Part shown: positions 12,999 to 26,718 of the stretch, piece after piece
Layout: each line of letters starts with the position of its first letter
How positions within the stretch are numbered: the stretch's first letter is position 1
Made by a program: the position numbers and the translations under genes
NCBI RefSeq assembly: GCF_003606385.1
Contig: NZ_CP032514.1
Location: forward strand, 2,960,913-3,024,912
Reading direction: 5' to 3'
Length of the DNA: 64,000 nt
Origin: Actinomyces lilanjuaniae
GTDB lineage: Bacteria > Actinomycetota > Actinomycetes > Actinomycetales > Actinomycetaceae
Notes under the pieces: model-generated
Seen by the model: only the letters and a program-made list of their open reading frames with translations
Database searches by the model: none
What the model was told of the DNA's origin: nothing

Positions 12999-14543
12999 TC
13001 AGCCCACAGGCTGTGAGGCCGGGGCGGGACCGGTCTCGGCACCAGGACCAGAGTCAGTGCCGACGTCGGGACCTGGGGCCTGGCCGCGCACCGTCATGAC
13101 CACCCAGTAGCACAGGGCGCCCAGGGGCGCGGCAATGAACCAGGAGAACGGGGCCAGTACCTGGCACAGGCGCAGTGGCAGCAGCGCGATGCACAACGCA
13201 GCCACCGCTGCGGGGACGAAGGCCGCCAGCGCGTTCAGGTTGACCCCGCGCTGGTAGTAGTAGCGCCCGTTCCTAGCCGGGGAGTACAGATCATGCAGGT
13301 CCACCCGGGAGCGCTTGTAGTAGAAGTAGTCGATGACCAGGATCCCGAAGAACGGCCCCAGCAGTGCCCCCAGCGACCCCAGGAAGTAGGTGATGGCCAC
13401 AGGGCTTCCGTACAGGTTCCACGGGGTGACAGCGATCGAGGCGAGGACCGCGACGATCCCGCCCACGCGGAACGACAGCCTCCGCGGGCTCACGTTGGAC
13501 AGGTCGAAGGCCGCCGAGACAAAGTTGGCGACAATGTTGACACCGATGGTGGCCACGATAAACCCCAGGCTCACCACGTAGAACACCAGGTCGTTGTCGA
13601 TACGCGACAGCAGGTCGCCCGGGTCGTGGAACGCCTCGCCGTAGACCTTGATGGCCGCGGCCGAGCACAGCACCGAGGTCATGGCGAAGGCGGTCCAGTT
13701 CAGAGGCAGCCCCAGCACGTTGCCCAGCACCATGGAGCGGGCGCTGGGCGCGTAGCGGGCGAAGTCAGAGAAGTTCAGCATCAGGGTGGCCAGGGTTCCC
13801 ACCGTCAGCCCCACGGCTACCATGACCTGGTACACCTGGTAGCCGATTCCGGGCGTGCGGCCCTCGGCGTTGGCCGTCCAGTCGAACTCCCACCCCGCCT
13901 GCCACAGCATCCAGGCACCCAGGCCGATCATGATCACCCAGATGACCGGCCCGGCCAGTCCCTGGAAGTGACGCACGGCGTCCATGCCGCGCCACACGAT
14001 GACCAGCTGGACAGCGGACAGGACAAGGAAGGCCACCCACCCTGAGACACGCAGCCCCAGGACGGGGGCGTCCAGCTCCCCCACGAGGGGCAGCACCCGT
14101 ATCATCAACAGCTCCAGGGAGACCGAGGCCAGGTAGGTCTGGATCCCGTACCAGGCGATCGCCACGATCCCGCGGATCACGGCCGGGAAGTTGGCACCCC
14201 ACACGCCCCAGGTCACCCGGGATATCACCGGGTAGGGGGCTCCCGTCTCGTAACCCATGAGCCCGGAGACGCAGCACGCCACGAAGATGATCAGCGTGGC
14301 GAGGAGCACGCCGATGACGATGCCCAGCGGCGTCATCCCCGTCAGCGTCCCCGTCCCGATGAACAGGGCGGCGGCGAAGGTGTAGTTCGAGGCGTTGTGC
14401 GCGTCGTTCATCCACAGGGAGAACAGGGCGTAGCCGCCCCAGGTGCGCTCCTGCGCCGTCGCCGGGGCGAGGTCGTCGTTGAACAGCCGCCCGTCCGTGT
14501 CACCACGACGCAGCTCGTCGCGGTCGACCTCCACAGCTTCCAT
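12999..14543 (-). CDS. NCS1-family nucleobase/hydantoin/allantoin permease (downstream copy)
   Basis: This 514-residue protein with about 12 hydrophobic spans is a nucleobase:cation symporter-1. Family hallmarks include RLFNDDLAP followed by WGGYALFSLWMNDAHNASNYTFAAALF, and ITYFLGSLGALLGPFFGILVIDYF. NCS1 proteins such as Mhp1 and PucI carry hydantoins, allantoin, uracil or cytosine. It is the last gene of the ureide/glyoxylate operon, 15 bases after gcl. It resembles the second permease at 22704-24206 in layout but is clearly divergent, so the two may take different substrates. The substrate cannot be assigned from sequence. Confidence 0.9.
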   Translation of the reverse strand: MEAVEVDRDELRRGDTDGRLFNDDLAPATAQERTWGGYALFSLWMNDAHNASNYTFAAALFIGTGTLTGMTPLGIVIGVLLATLIIFVACCVSGLMGYETGAPYPVISRVTWGVWGANFPAVIRGIVAIAWYGIQTYLASVSLELLMIRVLPLVGELDAPVLGLRVSGWVAFLVLSAVQLVIVWRGMDAVRHFQGLAGPVIWVIMIGLGAWMLWQAGWEFDWTANAEGRTPGIGYQVYQVMVAVGLTVGTLATLMLNFSDFARYAPSARSMVLGNVLGLPLNWTAFAMTSVLCSAAAIKVYGEAFHDPGDLLSRIDNDLVFYVVSLGFIVATIGVNIVANFVSAAFDLSNVSPRRLSFRVGGIVAVLASIAVTPWNLYGSPVAITYFLGSLGALLGPFFGILVIDYFYYKRSRVDLHDLYSPARNGRYYYQRGVNLNALAAFVPAAVAALCIALLPLRLCQVLAPFSWFIAAPLGALCYWVVMTVRGQAPGPDVGTDSGPGAETGPAPASQPVG

Positions 14544-14557
14544 GGCTGACCCTCTCC

Positions 14558-16357
14558 TCAGGTCTGGGACACCGCGCCCGGCTCCGGGCCCAGGGCCACG
14601 GCCAGGGGGGCGTCAGCAGCAGGGTCGTGCGCCAGCGGCTCGAACTCGTTGACGGCGTCCAGGGAGGTCCCCATCGAGACGTTGGTGACACGCTCCAGGA
14701 CCGCCTCAACCACCACCGGCACCTGGTCACGCAGCGCGGTCTGGCGCGCGCTGGACAGCGCCTGTGCCAGCTCCTCGGGCGTGTGCGCCCGCACGGCCCG
14801 GCACCCCAGCGCCTCCACCACGCCCACGTGGTCCACCCCGTAGCCCCGGGTCTGGGGGGCGTTGATATTGACGAAGGACAGCTGGACCTGGTAGTCCATG
14901 TCAAAAGCGCGTTGCGCCTGCCGGATCAGGCCCAGGTAGGCATTGTTGACTACCACGTGCACGTAGGGGATCTGGAGCTGGGCGGCCACCGCCAGCTCCT
15001 CAATGAGGAACTGGAAGTCGTAGTCCCCGGACAGCGCCACCACCGGGGTACTCGGGTCCGCTACGCTGGCGCCGATCGCCGCCGGAAGCGTCCACCCCAG
15101 TGGTGACGCCTGGCTGGCGTTGACCCAGTGCCGGGGGCGGTAGACGTGCAGCATCTGGGCCGCGGCAATCTGGGACAGGCCGATCGTGGTGACGTAGCGG
15201 GTCTCGGGCCCGAAGGCCCGGCACATCTCCTCATAGACCCGCTGGGGCTTCATGGGCACCTCGTCAAAGTGGGTCCTGCGCAGCAGGGTGCGCTTGCGCT
15301 CCTGGCACTCCTGCACCCAGGAGCCGTAGCGCTCCAGCGGGGCAGAGTAGCGCTGACGAGCCGCCTGGAGCAGGGTGCGCAGGGCGGCGCCCGCGTCGCT
15401 GACGGACCAGAAGTCGGGTGGGAAGACCCGCCCGACCTGCGTGGGCTCGATGTCCACGTGGACGAACCGGCGCTGTCCCCGGTAGGTGTCCAGGTCTCCC
15501 GTGTGACGGCTCGCCCAGCGGTTGCCGATCCCGATCACCAGGTCGGACTCCAGGAAGGTCGCGTTGGCGTAGCGCTGGGAGGTCTGGATACCTACCAGGC
15601 CCTGGGCCAGCCGGTGGTCGTCAGGGACGGCTCCCCACCCCATGAGGGTGGAGACCACCGGAACACCCAGGTACTCCGCCAGGGCAACCATGTCGTCGGC
15701 GGCCTCGGCGCTGATCACCCCTCCGCCACAGATAAGCAGCGGGTGCCTGGAGGCGTCGAGCATGTCGAGGATCCGCTCTGCCTGGTAGGCGGACATGGCG
15801 GGACGCTCCACCGGAAGCGGCTGGTAGGCGTCGATGTCGAACTCGATCACGGTGACCTGAACGTCAAGGGGCAGGTCGACAAGGACGGGACCCGGACGGC
15901 CAGAGCGCATGAGCTGGAAAGCCTTGGCCATGGTCCCGGGAACCTGGGCGGCCTCCAGGACGGTGACCGCCATCTTGGTGACCGGCGCGGCAACCGCAGC
16001 AATGTCGACAGCCTGGAACTCCTCCTTGTGCAGCATGGGGACGGCAGCCTGGCCGGTCAGGCACAGGATGGGCACGGAGTCCGCCGACGCGGAGTACATC
16101 CCGGTGACCATGTCGGTCCCCCCGGGACCGGAGGTGCCGATGCACACCCCGATACGACCTCCCCCCACACGGGAGAACCCCTCGGCCATGTGGGAGGCGG
16201 CCTCCACGTGGCGGGCCAGGACGTGGCGGATGCCCCCGTGCGCCCTCATGGCCGAGTACAGCGGGTTGATGGCAGCGCCTGGAACCCCGAAGGCCTGGGT
16301 GGCCCCCTCCTTGGCCAGGATGAGGGCGATGGCGTCCACTGCTCGCATTCGTGTCAT
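14558..16357 (-). CDS. gcl: Glyoxylate carboligase (tartronate-semialdehyde synthase)
   Basis: This 599-residue ThDP enzyme condenses two glyoxylates to tartronate semialdehyde plus CO2. The N-terminus [18 protein letters not shown] and the [13 protein letters not shown] segment match E. coli Gcl, with Val in place of the usual ThDP-activating Glu, the family's known peculiarity. The ThDP/metal-binding part [17 protein letters not shown] and [20 protein letters not shown] is also Gcl-specific. It starts at ATG 16357 after AGGAAGGAG. The same frame is open through the preceding gene only because that gene is frameshifted. Gcl is the strongest sign that the operon produces glyoxylate. Confidence 0.96.
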
Positions 16358-16388
16358 GTCTTGCGCTCCTTCCTGTTCACGGCACTGC

Positions 16389-17317
16389 TCACAGCGTGCG
16401 CCAGGCCTCGCGCAGCACCCGCTTGGCGTCAGCGACCACGGCGCGCGAGCGCTGCGCGCCCAGGGGCTGGACCTCGAAGGCGACGACAGCGCGCTCAGGG
16501 GCGTCCTCACGCAGGTAGCCGATGTCCAGCAGGCAGCGCAGGAACTCCCGCACCTCGGGGACACCACTCTCACCCTTGGGGTGGCCGAAGTAGGGGTGCA
16601 GGTCCCCGTAGGCGGGGTCGTCCAGGTCGCGGATGACGCAGGTGCCGATGTGGGCGTGGTTGATGAAGTCCCGAGTGGCGGACAGGGCCTGGCGCGGTGT
16701 CTCCCCCTGCATCGGCAGGTGGGAGAGGTCCACCATGAGGCCGAAGTCCGGACAGCCTTGCGCACCTCGTAGGCGACCTCGCAGGCCAGCCGGTTGGTGC
16801 CCACCAGGGCGCACTTGTCCGTGGAGTCGTCAAAGGTCTCCAGGGACAGTACCAGCCCCCCGTCTCCCTGGGACCTGGCGTAGCGGCCGACCTGGACGAC
16901 GGAGTCGACCAGTAGCGCCAGGGCCTCGTCGCGGCGCTGCGCCGGCCTGGGTCCGGAGAGGAACCCGATCTTGCGCGCCCCCACCTCGTAGGCCTGGTCC
17001 ACGGCTGCCTTCATGGCCGCCACGGCCTGGGCGCGCTGGTCCTCGTCAAAGGAGTTGAGGTCGTACCCGCCCTTGAGGAGCCAGGGCTGGGCACCGAACC
17101 CGACGTCCACGCCGGAGGTGCGCAGCAGACCCGTGACGGCGTCGCGCTCCTTCTGGTCATTGATGCGGGTGATCTCGATCTCCTCAAAGAAGTCGTCCTC
17201 GACGACCTCGGCGACGGAGGCGGCTACGGGCTGGTCCCCGCCCGCGGCAAAGGGGTAGGCCATGAAGTGGACGATCCCGACCTTCATGTAGTCGTGCAGC
17301 GACTCCTTCACGATCAT
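16389..17317 (-). pseudogene. Xylose-isomerase-like TIM-barrel protein (putative hydroxypyruvate isomerase role), frameshifted
   Basis: It starts at 17317 ([14 protein letters not shown], with AGAGGTG before the ATG) and matches sugar-phosphate isomerase/epimerase TIM barrels. Likely metal ligands are Glu in VLSLETFDD, Asp in MVDLSHLP, His in [11 protein letters not shown] and Glu in VVAFEVQP. The frame breaks near 16748-16751: GTC CGG ACT should read GTC CGG GAC, and one extra G rejoins AYEVRKAV to [12 protein letters not shown] and the end at 16389. A repaired protein would have about 309 residues, longer than canonical Hyi (about 258). Being next to gcl suggests tartronate semialdehyde isomerisation, but the family is broad and the reaction is unproven. 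Confidence 0.75.
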
Positions 17318-17469
17318 GCACCTCTTTTCCGTGTCTCTTTCCCTGTTTTCTCTTCTGTCTTCCTGTCTGGCCTGCTGCCTGACCGCGCTGCGCGCAGGAA
17401 GCAGGCTGTGGCGGCACCCCGTCGTGCCCGGGACCTGGGACGCCTGGTCTCGACCGGGCGTGCCAGGTC

Positions 17470-18495
17470 CTAGCCGCTGCGACGCCCCACCGCCCTGAGC
17501 GCCGCCTGGGCAATGTCCCGAGCCCGCAGGCCGAAGTAGTCAAAGAGCTCGTCCATGGTCCCGGACAGGCCGAAGACGTCACGGGTACCGACCCTCTCCA
17601 TGGGGACTGGACGGTTCTCCACCACCAGCTCGGCAACGGCAGAGCCCAGGCCACCGATCACGGAGTGCTCCTCCGCTGTGACCACGCACCCGGTCCGCTC
17701 CACAGAGTCGAGCAGGGTCTGGGCGTCCAGGGGCTTGACGGTGTGGACGTGGAGGACCTCGGCCTCGACCCCCTGGGCGTGGAGCCGACGGGCGGCTCCC
17801 AGCACCTCGCTGAGCATGCAGCCTGTCGAGACCAGGGTGACGTCGCAGCCCTCGCGCAGGCGCAGAGCCCTGCCGATGTCAAAGGGGGTGTCCTCCCGGG
17901 TGACCACGTCCACCGCCAGCTTGGCGACCCGCAGGTAGACAGGCCCGTCCAGCTCGTAGGCTGCAGCCACGGCCTTGCGCGTCTCGACCGCGTCGCACGG
18001 ACAGACCACCGTCATCTCCGGCAGGGAGCGCATGAGGCTGACATCCTCCAGGGGCAGGTGGGTCGCGCCCTCCTGCGCCGCACTAGTGCCCGCGTTGTGC
18101 CCCACGATCTTGACGTTGCGCCCGGAGTAGGCCACGCTCACGCGGATCTGGTCGAAGCCGCGGCCGGTGAGGAAGTTGGCGTAGGCGTTGGCGAAGGGCA
18201 CCTTGCCCAGCAGCGAGAGCCCGGCAGCGGTTCCCACGATGTCGCACTCGGCGATTCCGATGTTGAGGAAGCGGTCGGGAAAGGCCTCCTGGAACCTGCT
18301 GGTGTAGCTGGCCTTGGAGCAGTCGCCGTCCAGGACGAACACCTCCTCGTGGCGACTACCGACATCCAGCAGACCCTGCGCGTACCCGTCTCGGGGCTCT
18401 CTGCGGGGCGCACGCTCCTGCGGCTCCTCCTGCTGCCCGCCCGGGGGACCCTGGGCACTGTCCTGGGGCTCCATCTGCGTTCCTGCGGGTGTCAT
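17470..18495 (-). CDS. Transketolase, C-terminal subunit (split type)
   Basis: The product has 341 residues: a variable Gln/Pro-rich head of about 35, then the pyrimidine-binding and C-terminal transketolase domains. Visible motifs are [34 protein letters not shown] (the ThDP-activating Glu) and [28 protein letters not shown]. It overlaps the N-terminal subunit gene by ATGA, so the two are translationally coupled and form one heteromeric ThDP enzyme moving C2 ketol units. It sits inside the glyoxylate/ureide operon rather than with pentose phosphate genes, which suggests hydroxypyruvate as a donor. Confidence 0.92.
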
Positions 18496-19322
18496 ACCGG
18501 TTCCTCCAGCTCCTCCAGAGCCTGGCGCAGCTCCTCGTCACTGGGTGCCTTCCCGTGAAAGGCCGAGGTGTTCTCCATGAAGGAGACTCCCTTCCCCTTG
18601 ACTGTGCGGGCAATGATGATGGTGGGCACCCCCCGTGCCTGGGCGGCCGTCTCCAGCGCGGTGTCCACCGCACGCAGGTCGTGGCCGTCCACCTCAATGA
18701 CGTTCCAGCCGAAGGCCCTCCACTTCGCGCAGACGTCGCCGACGGACTTGACCCCCTCGACGGCCCCGTCCAGCTGGATCCCGTTGGCGTCCAGGACGGC
18801 GCACACGGTGTCCAGGTGGTGCGCCGCCGCCGTCATGGCGGCCTCCCAGACCTGCCCCTCCTGAATCTCCCCGTCGCCGAGCATGACGTAGTAGCGCGCC
18901 GTGACGCCGTCGTGACGGGCGGCCAGGGCGGCACCGTTGGCCACCGAGAGCCCCTGGCCCAGGGACCCCGAGGAGGAGTCGACCCAGGGCAGGTGGGTGT
19001 TGGAGGGGTGGCCCTGGAGCCTGGTAGGCATGGCCCGGAAGGTCATGAGCTCCTCGTGGGCAATGAGGCCCCTGGCGGCCATGACCGCGTAGTAGGCGGG
19101 TGTGCAGTGCCCCTTGGACAGGAAGAACATGTCCCGCTCGCGCCACAACGGCTCCTCGGGGCGGATCCGCATGTGCCGCAGGTAGAGCACCACCAGCACG
19201 TCGATGGCTGACAGCGACCCTCCCGGGTGCCCGCTGCCGGCCTTGTGCGTCATAAGGACGATGTCACGTCGGCACTGGCGTGCCACCCGGAGCATCTCCT
19301 CCAGCTCCTGGTCGTTGAGCAT
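18492..19322 (-). CDS. Transketolase, N-terminal subunit (split type)
   Basis: This 276-residue ThDP diphosphate-binding half begins at MLNDQELEEML (19322) after an AAGGAGA site. Motifs include HKAGSGHPGGSLSAIDVLVVLY, FLSKGHCTPAYYAVMA, GSLGQGLSVANG and the GDGEIQEGQVWEAAMTAAAHHLDTVCAVLDANGIQLDG ThDP/Mg signature. The frame stays open upstream to 19817, but that part is the antisense-like shadow of the DUF3830 gene. It partners with the overlapping C-terminal subunit. Split transketolases are common in archaea and some bacteria, and annotation often depends on context. Confidence 0.93.
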   Translation of the reverse strand: MLNDQELEEMLRVARQCRRDIVLMTHKAGSGHPGGSLSAIDVLVVLYLRHMRIRPEEPLWRERDMFFLSKGHCTPAYYAVMAARGLIAHEELMTFRAMPTRLQGHPSNTHLPWVDSSSGSLGQGLSVANGAALAARHDGVTARYYVMLGDGEIQEGQVWEAAMTAAAHHLDTVCAVLDANGIQLDGAVEGVKSVGDVCAKWRAFGWNVIEVDGHDLRAVDTALETAAQARGVPTIIIARTVKGKGVSFMENTSAFHGKAPSDEELRQALEELEEPV

Positions 19323-19410
19323 ACTTCTCTCCTTTTGGTCCGACGCTGCGTGCACCAGGTCCTGTCCTCCGAGCCCCGCGACGGGCCCAAGGCCTCGTTG
19401 CCGCTCCTGC

Positions 19411-19827
19411 TCACACCTCCCGTAACGAGATGTCCTGGGCTCCCTCCCAGAGGAGCCTCTCACCCAGGGCCGGCAGGTGCTGCCCACCCTCGACGACGGT
19501 GGCGAAGTGGTTCCCAGCCAGCTGTCCTGCCTTGGAGGCGAAGCTGACGTAGCCGTAGGCGATGAGCAGCTCGGTCTCGGAGACGCCACCGGGGTAGATG
19601 ACGATCTCGCCCGGGTGCGGGTAGCAGGTCCCGTTCTCGGCCTCCAGCCCCAGGTCCAGGTCCCCGAAGGGAATCCACCCTGCCTGCCCGGACCAGCGCA
19701 CGTGGATGATCTGGGACTCCAGCGGCAGAAGCCTGTCCCGCAGCGCCGCCACGGTCCGGGGAGCAGCCTCCTCCTCGTAACGTGCACGCAGGCTGAAGCC
19801 GCCGACGGTGATCTCAAGCCCTGTCAT
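19411..19827 (-). CDS. DUF3830 (cyclophilin-like fold) protein
   Basis: This 138-residue protein resembles DUF3830, an uncharacterised family with a cyclophilin-like beta-barrel. Diagnostic-looking segments are IIHVRWSGQAGWIP, ENGTCYPHPGEIVIYPGG, ELLIAYGYVSFASKAGQLAGNHFATV and a C-terminal GERLLWEGAQDI. It has no signal peptide or membrane span. It starts at ATG 19827 with AAAGG upstream and lies between the transketolase and carbamoyltransferase genes. In other genomes this family is found beside racemase, hydantoinase or amidohydrolase genes, so a small-molecule ring-opening or binding role is possible, but no activity is established to my knowledge. Confidence 0.75.
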   Translation of the reverse strand: MTGLEITVGGFSLRARYEEEAAPRTVAALRDRLLPLESQIIHVRWSGQAGWIPFGDLDLGLEAENGTCYPHPGEIVIYPGGVSETELLIAYGYVSFASKAGQLAGNHFATVVEGGQHLPALGERLLWEGAQDISLREV

Positions 19828-20011
19828 GATGACTGCCTTTCTCGTAGTTGGTGGTGCTCCCGGCCACTGCTCCTGACCGGCCTTCTCGGTGGTTGGTCCT
19901 GCTGCTCCTGGCGCTCACGGCAGCCCCCGGCCCCGTAACGACAGGTCACGCTGGCAGGAGGCTCCCGCGTTCGCGGCCACGCATCCGGTCCCTCACCGAG
20001 CAGGCCCACGC

Positions 20012-21007
20012 TCACAGCCCCAGGATCGCGGTCAACAGGGCCATCCGAATCGACACGGACTGGAGGATGGCCCGGAAGTAGAGCTGGTGGGGGCTGTCGT
20101 CGATACGCAGGTCCATCTCCCCCGCCCGACGGGGGAGAGTGTGGGTGACGTAGATCTGGTGACCCTTCTCCGCCTCCTCAGCCAATGTCTCGTAGCGCAC
20201 GAGGTAGCGGTCCATCAGCGTCTTGAACTCCTCCGCCTTGGCTCCCGCCGGAGCGGAGCACCCGGGCAGGTAGATGAGGTCCTGGGTGCGGACGAAGTCG
20301 TTGAAGCGGTCCTGGTCAAAGTCAGTCTCCTCGCGCAGTCCACCGTGGAGGGTGGAGCGGATGAGGCTGGTGACCTCCTCAGGGGCGCGGCGGTCGGAGT
20401 CCGAGCAGATCGTCACCTCCGCCCCCAGGCGTGCCAGGCCGTAGGCCATGGAGTGCCCGGTGCGGGCCTCCACCATGTCAGGGGAGACCACCGCGACGCG
20501 AAGGCCCTCGACCCGCCCGAAGCGACGCCACATGGTGTAGAGGTCCAGGAGCGCCTGAGTGGGGTGCTCCCAGTGGCCCCAGCCGCCGTTGATCACGGGA
20601 CAGGTCGCGGCCTGCGCCCCTCTCCTGGCCTCGTCCTCGTCGTGGTGGCGCAGCACCACCAGGTTGGCGTACTGGGATATACAGCGCATGGTGTCCTCAA
20701 TGGACTCCTCCTTGGCCACCGAGGAGGTGACACCGGGGTTCGCCTCGACGATCGTGTGGCCGCCCAGGCGCTGCATGGCGGTCTGAAAGCTCATCCGGGT
20801 CCGGGTCGAGGGCTGGAAGAACAGCAGGGCGAGCACCTTGTCCGGCAGCAGGTCGATCCTGGAGCGGTTGAACAGCTCCAGGACCCGTCCCAGCTCGAAG
20901 AGGTTGTAGAGCTGGTCGTCAGCCATGTCGTTGATGGAGACAAAGCTCTTGCCAACATGGTCGACGGCGCTGACGAGCTCCTCGATCGAGCGCATGTACT
21001 GGGGCAT
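20012..21007 (-). CDS. Aspartate/ornithine carbamoyltransferase-family enzyme with unknown second substrate
   Basis: This 331-residue protein follows the ATCase fold. Carbamoyl-phosphate residues are present: STRTR (67-71), Lys99 in the 80s-like loop, Arg120, HPTQ (148-151) and the LPRR loop (291-294). The Arg in ARTGHS (182), equivalent to an aspartate-carboxylate-binding Arg of ATCase, is kept. The R-x-Q motif that recognises aspartate is replaced by YLPGCSAPAG (246-255), so the second substrate is probably not aspartate. Its place after allantoinase suggests it acts on a ureido acid, perhaps by phosphorolysis to carbamoyl phosphate. The ATG at 21007 has a strong AAGGAGG site. Confidence 0.85.
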   Translation of the reverse strand: MPQYMRSIEELVSAVDHVGKSFVSINDMADDQLYNLFELGRVLELFNRSRIDLLPDKVLALLFFQPSTRTRMSFQTAMQRLGGHTIVEANPGVTSSVAKEESIEDTMRCISQYANLVVLRHHDEDEARRGAQAATCPVINGGWGHWEHPTQALLDLYTMWRRFGRVEGLRVAVVSPDMVEARTGHSMAYGLARLGAEVTICSDSDRRAPEEVTSLIRSTLHGGLREETDFDQDRFNDFVRTQDLIYLPGCSAPAGAKAEEFKTLMDRYLVRYETLAEEAEKGHQIYVTHTLPRRAGEMDLRIDDSPHQLYFRAILQSVSIRMALLTAILGL

Positions 21008-21158
21008 TGTGTCCTCCTTGTCTGGCCCTTGTCGGGTCCTTGTCTAGCCCTTGTCTGGTCCCTATCGGGTTCCTGTCGAGGTAGTGGCTGTGTCCGTGGG
21101 CTGTCACGAGTTGGAACTACCTGCCGCCCACATCGCTCGGCCATCGGCGCGGTAGGGC

Positions 21159-22535
21159 TCAGCAGCGCCTGATCACGCGACCGCCCATGGACTCGCGGTC
21201 CACCAGGCGGCCACGAAGGAAGGTGCGGTGCACCACCCCGCGCAGCCTCCGCCCGTGGTAAGGGGTGAGCTTGTTCCTGTGCTCCAGCCGCTGGGCATCG
21301 ACGACGAAGGTCTCCCGGGGGTCCATCACCACCAGGTCGGCGTCGCAGCCTGCAGCGATGGCACCCTTGCCCGGGATGCTGAAGGCCTGGCAGGGAGCAG
21401 TAGCCATCCAGCGGGCAAGGTCCTGCGGGCCCACGCCGTGCTCCTCACCAGCCGTCAGCACGGCCGCGGGCCCCACCTGCACGGAGGAGACACCGCCCCA
21501 CGCCGTGGCAAAATCTCCGGTCTGCCGGTTCTTGAGGTCCTCGGTGCAGGGAGAGTGGTCTGAGGCGACGTGGTCGATAGTGCCGTCGAGCAGCCCCTCC
21601 CACAGCGCCTGCCGGTTGGTCTCCTCCCGCAGCGGCGGGGCGCACTTGTACTCAGTGGCACCGTCAGGCACCGTGTGCGCCGCAAAGGTCAGGTAGTGGG
21701 GGCAGGTCTCCGCGGTGACCGGGACGCCGTCGTCCTTGGCCCGGCGGATCGCAGGCAGCGCCCGGGCAGAGGACAGGTGGAGGATATGCACCCGCGCCCC
21801 CGTGGCACGGGCTGCCTGGAGGACCCGGTCGATAGCCTGAACCTCCGCCTGGGACGGTCGCGAGGCCAGGTAGTCGGCGTACTCCCGCCCCACGTTCTGG
21901 GGTGCAGCCGCCAGCACCTGAGGGTCCTCGGCGTGGACGAGTAGGACCGCTCCCAGCTCGGCCACCTCGGCGGCCACCCGGTCCAGCTCCGTGTAGCTCA
22001 GGTGGCCGTACTCGGTGATACCGGAGAAGGAGGTGAAGCACTTGAAGCCAAAGACCCCGCGTTGCCACAGGGGCGCCAGCTGGGCGGTGCCGCCCGGGAC
22101 CGCTCCTGCCCACAGGCCGACGTCCACTGAGAGCCTGCCGCGGGCGGCCGCCTCTTTGGCCTCCAGCGCCTCCACTGTCGTGGTAGGAGGAGAGGAGTTG
22201 AGCGGCATGTCGATGATCGTCGTCACACCCGCGGCCAGAGCCGCCCGGGTGGCGCTCTCGTAGCCCTCCCAGCTGGTGCGGCCCGGCTCGTTGACGTGGA
22301 CGTGGGTATCCACCAGGCCGGGCATGAGGACACAGGTGCCAGGTACGCTCACCTCCGCGTCAGCACTGACAGGGGCGTCGATACCCGTCACTGCGGTGAT
22401 GCTCTCCCCGTCGACGACAACGGCGGCCGGGCGGGTGCCCCCCGGCAGGACGACCTGGCGGGAGCGGACGACCAGGTCGTGGTGCGACGGCGTGGCGGAC
22501 GTGCCTGGCAGGGTGGCAGGGGCGGTGGTCTCCAT
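21159..22535 (-). CDS. allB: Allantoinase (cyclic amidohydrolase)
   Basis: This 458-residue dinuclear metal hydrolase opens the hydantoin ring of allantoin to give allantoate. Motifs are GLVDTHVHVNEPGRTSWEGY (metal His pair plus the NEPG typical of allantoinases), the carboxylatable Lys in GFKCFTSFSG, LLVHAED, VHILHLSS and VASDHSPC with the catalytic Asp. The start METTAPATLP at 22535 fits a GGAGA site; upstream open frame to 22691 is probably non-coding. A hydantoinase/dihydropyrimidinase with another substrate cannot be excluded, but the NEPGR segment and the gcl-containing operon favour allantoin. Confidence 0.9.
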   Translation of the reverse strand: METTAPATLPGTSATPSHHDLVVRSRQVVLPGGTRPAAVVVDGESITAVTGIDAPVSADAEVSVPGTCVLMPGLVDTHVHVNEPGRTSWEGYESATRAALAAGVTTIIDMPLNSSPPTTTVEALEAKEAAARGRLSVDVGLWAGAVPGGTAQLAPLWQRGVFGFKCFTSFSGITEYGHLSYTELDRVAAEVAELGAVLLVHAEDPQVLAAAPQNVGREYADYLASRPSQAEVQAIDRVLQAARATGARVHILHLSSARALPAIRRAKDDGVPVTAETCPHYLTFAAHTVPDGATEYKCAPPLREETNRQALWEGLLDGTIDHVASDHSPCTEDLKNRQTGDFATAWGGVSSVQVGPAAVLTAGEEHGVGPQDLARWMATAPCQAFSIPGKGAIAAGCDADLVVMDPRETFVVDAQRLEHRNKLTPYHGRRLRGVVHRTFLRGRLVDRESMGGRVIRRC

Positions 22536-22703
22536 GGCGGGTCTCCGTGTCTGGTCTGTCTTGTCTGTGTGGCCTGTGGGTGTGGTCTGGTGTGTTCTGT
22601 GATCCCGGATACCCACCAGTGCCGCCCGGTACTGTCCGGGGCCGCCGGTGCCTCGCGGCTGGTGACGGGCGTCAGCAGGTTCGGGCGGCACCTGTCCTGC
22701 GCG

Positions 22704-24206
22704 TCAGCGGGAGACAGAGTCCCGATCTGCCTCCAGGTCCACGGACTCCGCCTGGCGGACCGCACGCAGCACATAGGGGTCGTGTCGGGACAGGAGAAGG
22801 TGCACACTCAGCCCCAGCGCGGCGCCGATGAACCAGGAGAAGGGGCTGAGGAACCTGCAGGGGTCGGTCGGTACCACCGCCACGGCTACCGAGGGAGCGC
22901 TGGCGACGACGAAGGCCCACACCGCCCTGAGGTTCCACCCCCGGGTGAAGGAGTGGAGGCCGTCAGCGCGGAACAGCTCGGAGACCTGAACCTTCTCCCG
23001 GCGCAGGATGTAGTAGTCGGCGATGATGATGCCGAACAGCGGCCCCAGGACGGCACCCAGGGCAGCCAGGAACACGTTGATGATGACCGGGTTGCTGTAA
23101 AGGTTCCACGGGGTGATCACCAGGGCGATGCAGGCCGAGATGACACCTCCCCGGACAAAGGTGATCCTCTCTGGCCAGGCATTGGCCAGGTCGTAGGCAG
23201 GGGAGACGAAGTTCGCCACCACGTTGATCCCTAGCGTCGCCACCGTGAAGGTCACCGCACCCAGGATGATGGCTACCGGGTGCTCGATCCGCGCGACGAG
23301 CTCGATGGGGTCAAAGATGTAGTCCCCGTAGATCCTCAGAGAGCCCGCGGTGACCAGTACAGAGACCACGGAGAAGGCGATGAAGTTGACGGGCAGGCCC
23401 CACAGGTTCGCCATCCACACGGCCCGGCGTGTCGGAGAGAACCGGGAGAAGTCGCAGAAGTTCAGCAGGAGGGTGGAGAAGTAGGACACCGTCAGGGCCA
23501 CAGCGGCTCCCACGGCGTGAGCAGTTCCCCAGCGGGCTGGGGACGTGGCAAGGTTGAGCGAGATGTGCCAGTCCGCACGCATAAGGATGTAGACGGTCAG
23601 GACGAGCATGACGACCCACACCGCAGGACCGGCCCAGTCCTGGAACCGGCGGATGGTATCCATGCCGTTGCGCAGCAGCAGCAGCTGGAGTGCCCACATG
23701 AAAAGGAAGGCGGCCCAGCCCAGGAGGCTCTCACCCAGGAACCTGGCCTGCCCGACCTCGGTGATACCGGGCCATATGCCCCCGACCAGCACGATGACGG
23801 CCCTAGAGGCCAGCCAGGTCTGGATGCCGTACCAGCAGATCGCCACGAATCCTCGCAGCAGTGCGGGCAGGTTGGAGCCCAGCGTGCCGAAGGTGATCCG
23901 CGCCAGGACGGGATAGCACAGGCCCGTCCTCTGCCCAGCAAATCCCACGAGGTTCATGAGGAGGAAGACCACGATGATGCCTACGGTCAGCGAGGCGAAC
24001 ACGGAGACGGCACCGATGCCCAGGGCGAAGAGACCAGCGGCAAAGGTGTAGCCACCGATGGAGTGAATGTCTGACATCCACATGGCGAAGAGGGAGAAGA
24101 ATCCCCAGTCCCGGCTCCTGGCCGGCGCCAGGTCGTCATTGATCAGGCGGGGATCGACCGACGCGGTCGACTCGGTCGGGTGCCCGACTAGTGTGTCGTG
24201 TTCCAC
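22704..24206 (-). CDS. NCS1-family nucleobase/hydantoin/allantoin permease (upstream copy)
   Basis: This 500-residue NCS1 symporter has about 12 spans. It has the family start PRLINDDLAP followed by WGFFSLFAMWMSDIHSIGGYTFAAGLF, and NVFLAALGAVLGPLFGIIIADYY in the C-terminal half. It starts with GTG at 24206 after GAAAGGA. It lies between the racemase and allantoinase genes, so it probably imports the operon's first substrate (allantoin or another hydantoin/ureide). The second NCS1 gene at the operon end has a similar layout but diverged sequence. Confidence 0.91.
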   Translation of the reverse strand: MEHDTLVGHPTESTASVDPRLINDDLAPARSRDWGFFSLFAMWMSDIHSIGGYTFAAGLFALGIGAVSVFASLTVGIIVVFLLMNLVGFAGQRTGLCYPVLARITFGTLGSNLPALLRGFVAICWYGIQTWLASRAVIVLVGGIWPGITEVGQARFLGESLLGWAAFLFMWALQLLLLRNGMDTIRRFQDWAGPAVWVVMLVLTVYILMRADWHISLNLATSPARWGTAHAVGAAVALTVSYFSTLLLNFCDFSRFSPTRRAVWMANLWGLPVNFIAFSVVSVLVTAGSLRIYGDYIFDPIELVARIEHPVAIILGAVTFTVATLGINVVANFVSPAYDLANAWPERITFVRGGVISACIALVITPWNLYSNPVIINVFLAALGAVLGPLFGIIIADYYILRREKVQVSELFRADGLHSFTRGWNLRAVWAFVVASAPSVAVAVVPTDPCRFLSPFSWFIGAALGLSVHLLLSRHDPYVLRAVRQAESVDLEADRDSVSR

Positions 24207-24279
24207 CGCAGCGTCCTTTCAGTCTTGTGAGCTCCACTCCACCCGCTTCAGGCGCCGTTGCCCGACCGGGTGCGCGCGG

Positions 24280-25017
24280 TCAGGTGACCTCCACGACCTC
24301 AGCGGACAGGGGCCAGCCACTGAGCCGCTTGGGACGAGGCTCGGCATAGGTGCGGACCTTGGAGGTACGCAGCCCCAGGTCCACCAGGAGCTCCGCGGTC
24401 TTGACCGCAGCAGCCACCCCCTCGACCACCGGGACTCCCAGCTCCTCGGCGAGCACGGCATCCAGTCCCGCCATACCGCCACAGCCCAGGACGACGACCT
24501 CGGCGAGGTCCTGCTCCACAGCCAGGCGGGCCTGGTGGGCAATTGCCTCCCGCGCCCGGGTGGTGTCCTCGAGCTCCAGCACGCCAAGACCGGTCGCCCG
24601 CACGGAGGTGCAGTGGCTCAGCAGGCCGAAGCACAGGAGGCGGTCCTCAATGTGGGGGACGGTGCGGTCCAGGGTGGTGACCACCGAGAAGCGGCGGCCC
24701 AGCAGCATCGCTGTGTGCACGGCCGCCTCAGTGATGTCAACAACCGGCACCTCCAAGAGCTCCATGAGGCCCTCCTTGCCGTGGTCACCGAAGCCGGCCA
24801 GGATCACAGCGTCAGCACCGCCCTGGTAGGTGACCACCGCGTCCATGACGGCAGCGGCAGCAAGATAGGACTCAAAGCCCCCCTCTACGGAGTCCGCGCC
24901 AACGACGGGGGTCAGGCCCACGACGTTCGTGCCGCTGCGGGCCACTGCGGCGGCAGCCTGGCAGATGCTGTCGGTCATGGAGGAGGTGGTGTTGACGTTG
25001 ACGGCGAGGATCTTCAT
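24280..25017 (-). CDS. Asp/Glu/hydantoin racemase-family protein lacking one catalytic Cys
   Basis: The 245-residue product starts MKILAVNVNTTSSMTDSI, a HyuE/allantoin racemase-type N-terminus, and has GCGGMAGL with Cys179 as one catalytic thiol. The N-terminal thiol position, normally in an ACFGD-like motif, reads AGFGDHG with Gly75. Two-base racemisation needs both thiols, so this protein may be an isomerase or decarboxylase-like variant, or may epimerise one direction by another residue. It is the first gene of the 12-kb ureide operon and has an operator-like palindrome about 170 bases upstream. The spontaneous racemisation of allantoin makes a racemase useful but not essential. Confidence 0.85.
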   Translation of the reverse strand: MKILAVNVNTTSSMTDSICQAAAAVARSGTNVVGLTPVVGADSVEGGFESYLAAAAVMDAVVTYQGGADAVILAGFGDHGKEGLMELLEVPVVDITEAAVHTAMLLGRRFSVVTTLDRTVPHIEDRLLCFGLLSHCTSVRATGLGVLELEDTTRAREAIAHQARLAVEQDLAEVVVLGCGGMAGLDAVLAEELGVPVVEGVAAAVKTAELLVDLGLRTSKVRTYAEPRPKRLSGWPLSAEVVEVT

Positions 25018-25185: not shown

Positions 25186-25201
25186 CTCAGTGCTCTGAGG
25201 T
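25186..25201. promoter_or_regulatory. Palindromic operator candidate for the ureide operon
   Basis: CTCAG-TGCT-CTGAG is a 5-4-5 palindrome located 170 bases upstream of the racemase start. Its reverse complement plus two flanking bases (ACCTCAGAGCACTGAG, 16 bases) occurs exactly at 25888-25903, before the small membrane protein gene. Both sites lie close to a FadR-type GntR gene, the likely binder. This is inferred from repetition, symmetry and position. Confidence 0.6.
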
Positions 25202-25887: not shown

Positions 25888-25903
25888 ACCTCAGAGCACT
25901 GAG
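25888..25903. promoter_or_regulatory. Second copy of the palindromic operator
   Basis: ACCTCAGAGCACTGAG is the exact reverse complement of 25186-25201. It lies about 90 bases upstream of the small membrane protein start (25797) and about 90 bases downstream of the GntR stop (25996). As a palindrome it would bind a dimer equally in both copies. Confidence 0.6.
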
Positions 25904-25995: not shown

Positions 25996-26718
25996 TCAGA
26001 GGCCGTCAGACAGCTCCCCGCCCTGGCGGTCACGTGCTGCCAGGATGTCGGCCCGCGTCTGCGCCATGTGCTCACGCATCAGCTCAGCGGCCCGGGCGCC
26101 GTCGCCGACAGCGACCGCCTCCTGGATAGCACGGTGCTGCTCAGCCACACGCGTCCGCACGCCCTGAGCCTCTGCGGCTCTGAACCTGGCACCGAGCAGG
26201 GCGTCACGGTAGGGGTGCACCGCAGCGGGGACGAACTGGTTGCCGGCAGCGCTGAGAACGGCGTCGTGAAAGGCGTTGTCCAGCCCGACCACCGCCTGGA
26301 CGTCGTCGGTTCTCGCGGCCACCTCGTACTCCTCCACGCACCGCGACATCTCCGCCAGATGACTGTCCGCGCGGTGAGCAGCAGCCAGCCGGACGGCACC
26401 GACCTCCAGCATCTCCTGAACCCCCAGGACGTCGAGCTCCACCTCCAGCACACGCCCCTCGTGCGCGGCCACGTACATGAGGTAGCGCAGCTCGCGCCAC
26501 CGGAACCGCGGCAGGAGAAACGTGCCCCTCCCGTGCACCACATTGAGGACCCCGCCCATAGAGAGGTTCCTCACCGCCTCACGCATTGTTGGCCGCGAGA
26601 CCCGAAGGAACCGGGCCAGCTCGGCCTCGGCGGGAAGCGGCTCGTCCTCCACGAAGATTCCGTTGGCGACCGCGTCGAGAACCTTCTCAACGGCCCCTGC
26701 CACCATGTCATTGGCCAC
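25996..26718 (-). CDS. FadR-subfamily GntR transcriptional regulator
   Basis: The 240-residue protein has an N-terminal winged helix (LPAEAELARFLRVSRPTMREAVRNLSMGGVLNVVHGRGTFL) and an FCD ligand domain with metal/ligand-binding-type residues in DNAFHDAVLSAAGN and EQHRAIQEAV. Starts with GTG at 26718 after TGAGGAG. FCD regulators usually sense small carboxylic acids. Its location upstream of the ureide operon and near the two identical palindromes makes it the likely pathway regulator; allantoate, ureidoglycolate or glyoxylate would be natural effectors, but that is inference. Confidence 0.9.
   Translation of the reverse strand: MANDMVAGAVEKVLDAVANGIFVEDEPLPAEAELARFLRVSRPTMREAVRNLSMGGVLNVVHGRGTFLLPRFRWRELRYLMYVAAHEGRVLEVELDVLGVQEMLEVGAVRLAAAHRADSHLAEMSRCVEEYEVAARTDDVQAVVGLDNAFHDAVLSAAGNQFVPAAVHPYRDALLGARFRAAEAQGVRTRVAEQHRAIQEAVAVGDGARAAELMREHMAQTRADILAARDRQGGELSDGL

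Follow-up and report, generated by a model that had tools for sequence, protein, structure and literature searches.

The closest described counterpart of the locus analyzed here is the UGTCase cluster of Rubrobacter xylanophilus. In this cluster, allantoinase, a gene of unknown function, a pseudo-ATCase, and carbamate kinase are adjacent and are followed by asparaginase and a regulator, with glyoxylate genes downstream (PMC4016543). The purified enzyme, Rxyl_2847, cleaved allantoate in the presence of arsenate or phosphate to ureidoglycine and carbamoyl phosphate (Barba et al. 2013, PMC4016543). The authors state that no allantoate amidohydrolase or ureidoglycolate-cleaving gene was found. We analyzed a ten-gene operon of Actinomyces lilanjuaniae that resembles this cluster. 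It lies in a 64-kb stretch, hereafter the window, at the very end of a genome that consists of one contig of 3,024,912 bases. Unlike the Rubrobacter cluster, the operon has no carbamate kinase, asparaginase, uricase, or XDH gene, its ATCase-like carbamoyltransferase (CT) carries HTLP/GCS rather than HPLA/AIA-type motifs, and its tail has a split transketolase and another TIM-barrel family.

Other systems resemble single steps of this operon. E. coli YgeW, of the reductive urate pathway, is also a carbamoyltransferase that converts a ureido acid and phosphate to carbamoyl phosphate (PMC12507026), but it uses a different substrate and the window CT falls far below the YgeW cut-offs. The E. coli oxamic transcarbamylase AllFGH, with AllK, likewise yields carbamoyl phosphate and ATP from allantoin nitrogen (PMC11326118); it is a three-gene enzyme acting on oxalurate, whereas the window encodes a single ATCase-like protein that probably acts on allantoate. 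The Gcl-Hyi-GlxR-glycerate kinase pathway of P. aeruginosa has Gcl and the tartronate semialdehyde/hydroxypyruvate pair in common with the operon (PMC12694930). In contrast, the window genome has no GlxR-like gene above 142 bits, and it has another TIM-barrel family and the split transketolase. A literature search by enzyme name (UGTCase) returned the 2013 Rubrobacter study, on a thermophile, as the sole experimental account, beside a paper whose title concerns graph-transformation algorithms. A search combining Actinomyces with allantoin and allantoinase returned two papers, both on other subjects to judge by their titles.

Gene content and conservation of the operon

Pfam and NCBIfam scans placed ten co-directional genes on the minus strand, at 12999-25017, with intergenic gaps of at most 184 bases by their coordinates. 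They bore out the gene families named in the original prediction, with the correction that the TIM-barrel gene (TIM) is frameshifted. The genes are as follows.

24280..25017, minus strand: Asp/Glu/hydantoin racemase family, probable allantoin racemase (putative substrate); PF01177, 160 bits; in 12/12 operons
22704..24206, minus strand: NCS1 permease A, probable allantoin uptake (putative substrate); PF02133, 296 bits; TIGR00800, 307 against a cut-off of 353 bits
21159..22541, minus strand: allantoinase AllB, start codon uncertain; TIGR03178, 537 bits, above its cut-off of 358
20012..21007, minus strand: ATCase-like carbamoyltransferase CT, probable allantoate phosphorolysis; motifs STRT/HPTQ/HTLP/GCS; after allB in 12/12 operons
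19411..19827, minus strand: DUF3830, cyclophilin-like fold, proposed ureidoglycine/ureidoglycolate-cleaving enzyme from context and a predicted model; PF12903, 104 bits
18492..19280, minus strand: split transketolase, N half (TK-N), ThDP domain, start uncertain; PF00456, 181 bits; in 12/12 operons
17470..18495, minus strand: split transketolase, C half (TK-C); PF02779 and PF02780; in 12/12 operons
16389..17317, minus strand: TIM-barrel isomerase, frameshifted, proposed tartronate semialdehyde/hydroxypyruvate isomerase; PF01261; two tblastn pieces
14558..16351, minus strand: glyoxylate carboligase Gcl; TIGR01504, 977 bits, above its cut-off of 711
12999..14543, minus strand: NCS1 permease B; PF02133, 283 bits

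We propose that this locus is an allantoin-utilization operon. Allantoin would enter through NCS1, be racemized, and be opened to allantoate by AllB. CT, in the catabolic direction, would convert allantoate and phosphate to ureidoglycine and carbamoyl phosphate, from which carbamate kinase would form ATP. DUF3830 may then help to free glyoxylate from ureidoglycine or ureidoglycolate, and Gcl would join two glyoxylates into tartronate semialdehyde. TIM would interconvert this product and hydroxypyruvate, which the split transketolase could use as an irreversible two-carbon donor onto an aldose phosphate, with loss of CO2. Carbon would thereby join the pentose phosphates at no cost in NADH or ATP. 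We give an even chance to the locus having this function together with the whole route through CT, DUF3830, Gcl, TIM, and the split transketolase. Reaction directions and substrates are all inferred from sequence, least firmly for the role of DUF3830 and for the link between hydroxypyruvate and transketolase. The original prediction had left hydantoin or allantoin as the starting compound; allantoin would fit better because of AllB and Gcl.

Of 49 genomes from the genus Actinomyces, 12 carry CT (E ≤ 1e-60), that of the window among them. Two clusters of open reading frames (ORFs), c30 and c113, look like false antisense ORFs. Operon content in the 12 genomes was scored by tblastn, with a set of reference genes only. 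The racemase, both NCS1 permeases, AllB, CT, DUF3830, TK-N, TK-C, TIM, and Gcl occurred together in all 12, the window TIM being counted as two pieces. The gene neighborhood, which had been put forward for a wider search, is thus kept throughout the CT-bearing Actinomyces, and related clusters without transketolase are present in other actinobacterial groups. A carbamate kinase gene (arcC) lies between the racemase and NCS1 in ten operons and is missing from those of the window and of the relative G443. A glxR gene precedes Gcl in seven operons and is missing from those of the window, G443, G410, G401, and G408. No separate Hyi or AllC match was found by tblastn inside any of the 12 operons. 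Gene order changes little among them, although in two DUF3830 follows TIM rather than CT. ORF calling on the operons of two relatives (L034 and L035) added only arcC and glxR to the genes seen in the window. Comparison of the window with G443 gave ratios of nonsynonymous to synonymous substitution (dN/dS) of 0.036-0.40 for nine of the operon genes and for the upstream GntR gene. These values, and the joint occurrence of the ten genes in 12 of 12 genomes, argue that the gene set is not due to chance.

Genes of the classical pathway were sought in the remainder of the genomes. Carbamate kinase, listed as missing in the original prediction, is absent from the window operon, yet the genome encodes one over the cut-off (365 bits) at 1506635-1507531, adjoining a PF00185 gene at 1507558 that is probably OTCase. 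Several other expected absences held in the genome searches, which covered AllC/HyuC, AllA, and GlxR. The best AllC/HyuC match in the window genome scored 18.8 bits against a cut-off of 204, and AllA, present in 4 of 50 genomes examined overall, was found in none of the 12 CT-bearing Actinomyces. For GlxR the curated cut-off of 341 bits alone says little, because the operon copies of the seven relatives also fall below it (284-312 bits). In four of the five genomes without an operon glxR, the best GlxR matches scored 72, 142, 145, and 165 bits, with 142 in the window genome; in G408, the fifth, a GlxR of 371 bits is encoded outside the operon. The gene content, its conservation, the absence of AllC and AllA, and the lack of a GlxR-like gene in these four genomes are direct observations. 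Glycerate kinase (415 bits in the window genome) was uninformative as a marker of the operon type, with matches above 300 bits in 42 of the 49 genus genomes, including all 12 with CT.

The proposed carbamoyltransferase and DUF3830 steps

The window CT matched 17 carbamoyltransferase models of NCBIfam and fell short of the cut-off of every one. Assignment as PyrB (aspartate carbamoyltransferase; TIGR00670, 211 bits against 236.95) was rejected, as was assignment as YgeW (TIGR03316, 27.1 against 500 bits; NF005538, 29.4 against 453 bits). The window CT and the 19 other full copies compared have both carbamoyltransferase signatures, S-X-R-T (as STRT) and HPXQ (as HPTQ). All of these copies also have HTLP and GCS; a partial copy that starts after STRT (L039) has HPTQ, HTLP, and GCS. 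The RXQ aspartate motif of true ATCases, whose position in the alignment we assigned from the motif table of PMC4016543, is replaced by GCS in 21 of 21 copies. In the published scheme, the assayed UGTCase subgroup 1 has HPLA with AIA, AIS, or SIA, and subgroup 2 has H[ST]LP with GX[SC]; the sole subgroup 2 member, in Nocardioides, adjoins a ygeW homologue, XDH genes, and HyuA (PMC4016543). The window CT has neither HPLA nor AIA/AIS/SIA, and its HTLP/GCS combination is the subgroup 2 pattern. We therefore describe it as working like UGTCase, not as a member of subgroup 1.

Gene context was compared as well. CT is next to allB in all 12 operons, and arcC is in ten of them but not in that of the window. 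Five further loci from one family of the phylum (L124, L125, L128, L129, and L131) have the order allantoinase-DUF3830-CT-carbamate kinase-asparaginase-regulator. These loci have the same CT motifs as the window together with the published Rubrobacter gene order, suggesting a shared function, and the window CT thus probably acts like UGTCase in phosphorolysing allantoate. Since DUF3830 stands in the place of the unknown Rubrobacter gene in these five loci, Rxyl_2846 is probably a DUF3830 protein. The outline from ureide to glyoxylate with formation of carbamoyl phosphate, as first predicted, stands. The claim that the route to carbamoyl phosphate is new does not, because this step was shown for the Rubrobacter pseudo-ATCase in 2013 (PMC4016543).

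A contig scan for DUF3830 confirmed at least 592 places, and the best 80 of the 592 were kept. Thirty-seven of these 80 were handled as Bradyrhizobium; L068, a contig titled Frankia, was left among the others and carries a PuuE 95% identical to Bradyrhizobium PuuE. Larger stretches were examined around 33 places among the DUF3830 matches. The matches behind L133 and L142 are weak. Most members of this DUF3830 subfamily are encoded in purine-catabolism clusters, together with either AllC or CT, in Actinomycetota and Pseudomonadota, and because of this context DUF3830 may act on ureidoglycine or ureidoglycolate. Among 13 CT loci in the DUF3830 set, eight have Hyi without TIM or transketolase, four are Actinomyces loci (also among the 12 operons) with TIM and transketolase and without Hyi, and the remaining one is a 3-kb contig. 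Of 109 loci, L037 (1-16171) alone has AllC as well as CT matches next to DUF3830. On plasmids of Azospirillum, Aureimonas, and Paraburkholderia (L178, L180, and L181), a dihydropyrimidinase lies beside or near DUF3830, accompanied by a DapA-like enzyme and an FAD oxidoreductase; this set may represent another ureido-acid pathway.

The predicted model of DUF3830 (pLDDT 92.4) matched structures with a cyclophilin-like fold. Identity with the ureidoglycolate lyase AllA was rejected on this fold and on the domain calls, with PF12903 matched and PF04115 absent. A search of solved structures with the profile of DUF3830 gave one match above the rest, 3KOP (E 2.7e-6). This DUF3830 protein of Arthrobacter sp. 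FB24 is 27% identical to that of the window and has no known function. The Pictet-Spenglerases KslB and McbB share the fold, but their chains are about twice as long and they act on tryptophan. One apparent fusion of DUF3830 with OHCU decarboxylase (P0166), based on a precomputed Pfam call of PF09349, was discarded: the preceding stretch is about 50 residues, pointing to adjacency or read-in rather than a clear fusion. The name DUF3830 was not found in the papers searched, and no paper joining 'cyclophilin-like fold' with ureidoglycolate was found.

A proposed glyoxylate exit

The split transketolase is divided over two ORFs, across which the thiamine diphosphate (ThDP), pyrimidine, and C-terminal domains are all present (PF00456, PF02779, and PF02780, above cut-offs). 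A full-length transketolase is encoded in addition in all 12 CT genomes. The split enzyme and TIM together occupy the place that Hyi has in related clusters. We propose that the split transketolase uses hydroxypyruvate as donor and passes its carbon to pentose phosphates. Phosphoketolase was rejected as an outlet for the product: PF09364 occurs in 2 of the 49 genus genomes, and the 12 CT genomes lack it. Outside the window, the same genome has another short TK-N match, more distant (119 bits), at G000:C1:687505-688221, with similar matches in G443, G404, and G408.

TIM is not canonical Hyi, since the intact A. bowdenii copy scored 18.9 bits against the TIGR03234 cut-off of 353. Its fold is nearest to D-tagatose 3-epimerases, and solved structures gave four weak matches to its profile, the best being Art22 (E 1.2e-8). 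Among 400 genomes drawn from the phylum, TIM was found in that of the window and two others only; relatives were also matched in Bacilli, among them Peribacillus and Neobacillus. We propose that it works like hydroxypyruvate isomerase, interconverting tartronate semialdehyde and hydroxypyruvate. Two contexts agree with this: a TIM-family protein with 40% identity is encoded, in the allantoin cluster of Enterococcus gilvus, between a Gcl-like gene and genes for a 2-hydroxyacid dehydrogenase and glycerate kinase, and in G275 a glyoxylate/hydroxypyruvate-reductase-like gene comes after another member of the family.

The fold and some contexts would also suit a separate sugar module, in which transketolase and TIM (for example a ketose/sugar-acid isomerase or 3-epimerase) are linked to the operon without acting on Gcl products. 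Split transketolases for special sugars are known. TIM-family genes in Thermus and in G254 have contexts without Gcl, in G254 with a sugar-ABC-type binding protein. We nevertheless consider this unlikely, as every one of the 12 operons includes transketolase and TIM, at the position of Hyi in related clusters. With gaps of at most 184 bases, there is also no sugar kinase or other sugar transporter among the ten window genes.

A more ordinary outcome would keep the same front end and have the TIM-made hydroxypyruvate reduced to glycerate by a general 2-hydroxyacid dehydrogenase and phosphorylated by glycerate kinase, leaving the split transketolase only to refill pentose phosphates or to serve another substrate. 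The genome does encode glycerate kinase, and in E. gilvus genes for a D-2-hydroxyacid dehydrogenase and glycerate kinase come after the TIM-family gene. However, neither a 2-hydroxyacid dehydrogenase nor a glycerate kinase is among the ten window genes (no genome-wide search was made for hydroxypyruvate reductases), the L034 and L035 operons add no such gene, and both transketolase halves are retained in every operon. We regard this alternative as rather doubtful. The Gcl-like, TIM-family, dehydrogenase, and glycerate kinase genes of E. gilvus belong to a large allantoin island on plasmid pCR1A (L183/L185), which also has allE, allD, FdrA, DUF1116, DUF2877, carbamate kinase, and allB.

The frameshift in the window TIM lies near 16751: the intact A. 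bowdenii protein matched the window by tblastn as two overlapping pieces in different frames, 16751-17311 and 16392-16760. TIM was matched unbroken in each of the 11 other operons, including that of G443, from which the window gene differs by one single-base length difference inside the gene, with 97.4% identical nucleotides over the gene. The frameshift may be either a real mutation or a sequencing error. Tautomerization of tartronate semialdehyde to hydroxypyruvate can be spontaneous (PMC12694930). For the window, the frameshift thus leaves spontaneous hydroxypyruvate formation, a sequencing error, or a decaying tail. If the operon as a whole were decaying in this lineage, with arcC and glxR lost and TIM broken, it would serve nitrogen release or nothing. 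The frameshift and the lack of both genes in the window and G443 operons would agree with this, but the dN/dS values between these two genomes and the unbroken TIM of G443 argue against it, and we think it very improbable.

Upstream region and implications

We return to the allantoin route proposed above and to the region upstream of its first gene, where the following features were found.

25996..26718, minus strand: GntR/FadR-type regulator, upstream, probably operon-related
25186..25199, no strand: palindrome of 14 nt, CTCAG-N4-CTGAG, candidate operator, some 170-180 nt upstream of the racemase gene
25890..25903, no strand: second copy of the CTCAG-N4-CTGAG palindrome, between the GntR and racemase genes

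We take the regulator to be of the GntR/FadR type from its sequence. A homologue (70-99% identity) lies upstream of the racemase gene in eight of the 11 other operons, two further operons have a 42-43% match, and none was found in the stretches examined for the eleventh (L159 and L160). PADLOC gave no match to the regulator. No window match to CTCAGNGCNCTGAG at up to one mismatch was found beyond the two palindrome copies. Seven of the 12 operons, including that of the window, have the palindrome in exact or near form within the 900 bases that precede the racemase gene; two or more matches arose by chance in 7 of 100 shuffles. The palindrome is a candidate operator. Rfam at gathering scores gave no match in the window, and a promoter and terminator scan of the window gave 0 and 4 sites, respectively, against shuffle means of 1.0 and 3.1.

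The original prediction had CT, DUF3830, and transketolase replacing classical steps. For CT there is a precedent, and the operon has a front end with known, rarely described chemistry. The ideas for DUF3830 and transketolase survive as the new part: DUF3830 as a new enzyme family and a new glyoxylate exit in Actinomyces are each plausible from the sequence data. A stronger, joint proposal is possible and offered tentatively. The DUF3830 subfamily would be an unrecognized ureidoglycine- or ureidoglycolate-cleaving family of purine-degrading bacteria in at least two phyla, replacing AllA/AllE-type enzymes and sharing its cyclophilin-like fold with Pictet-Spenglerases, and Actinomyces would assimilate glyoxylate without reductant or ATP via Gcl, an isomerase of a new family, and, for the resulting hydroxypyruvate, a dedicated split transketolase. 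If true, a Pfam family without an assigned function would gain one, a dedicated transketolase would bring glyoxylate directly into the pentose phosphate pool, and energy-yielding allantoate phosphorolysis would extend to Actinomyces species.

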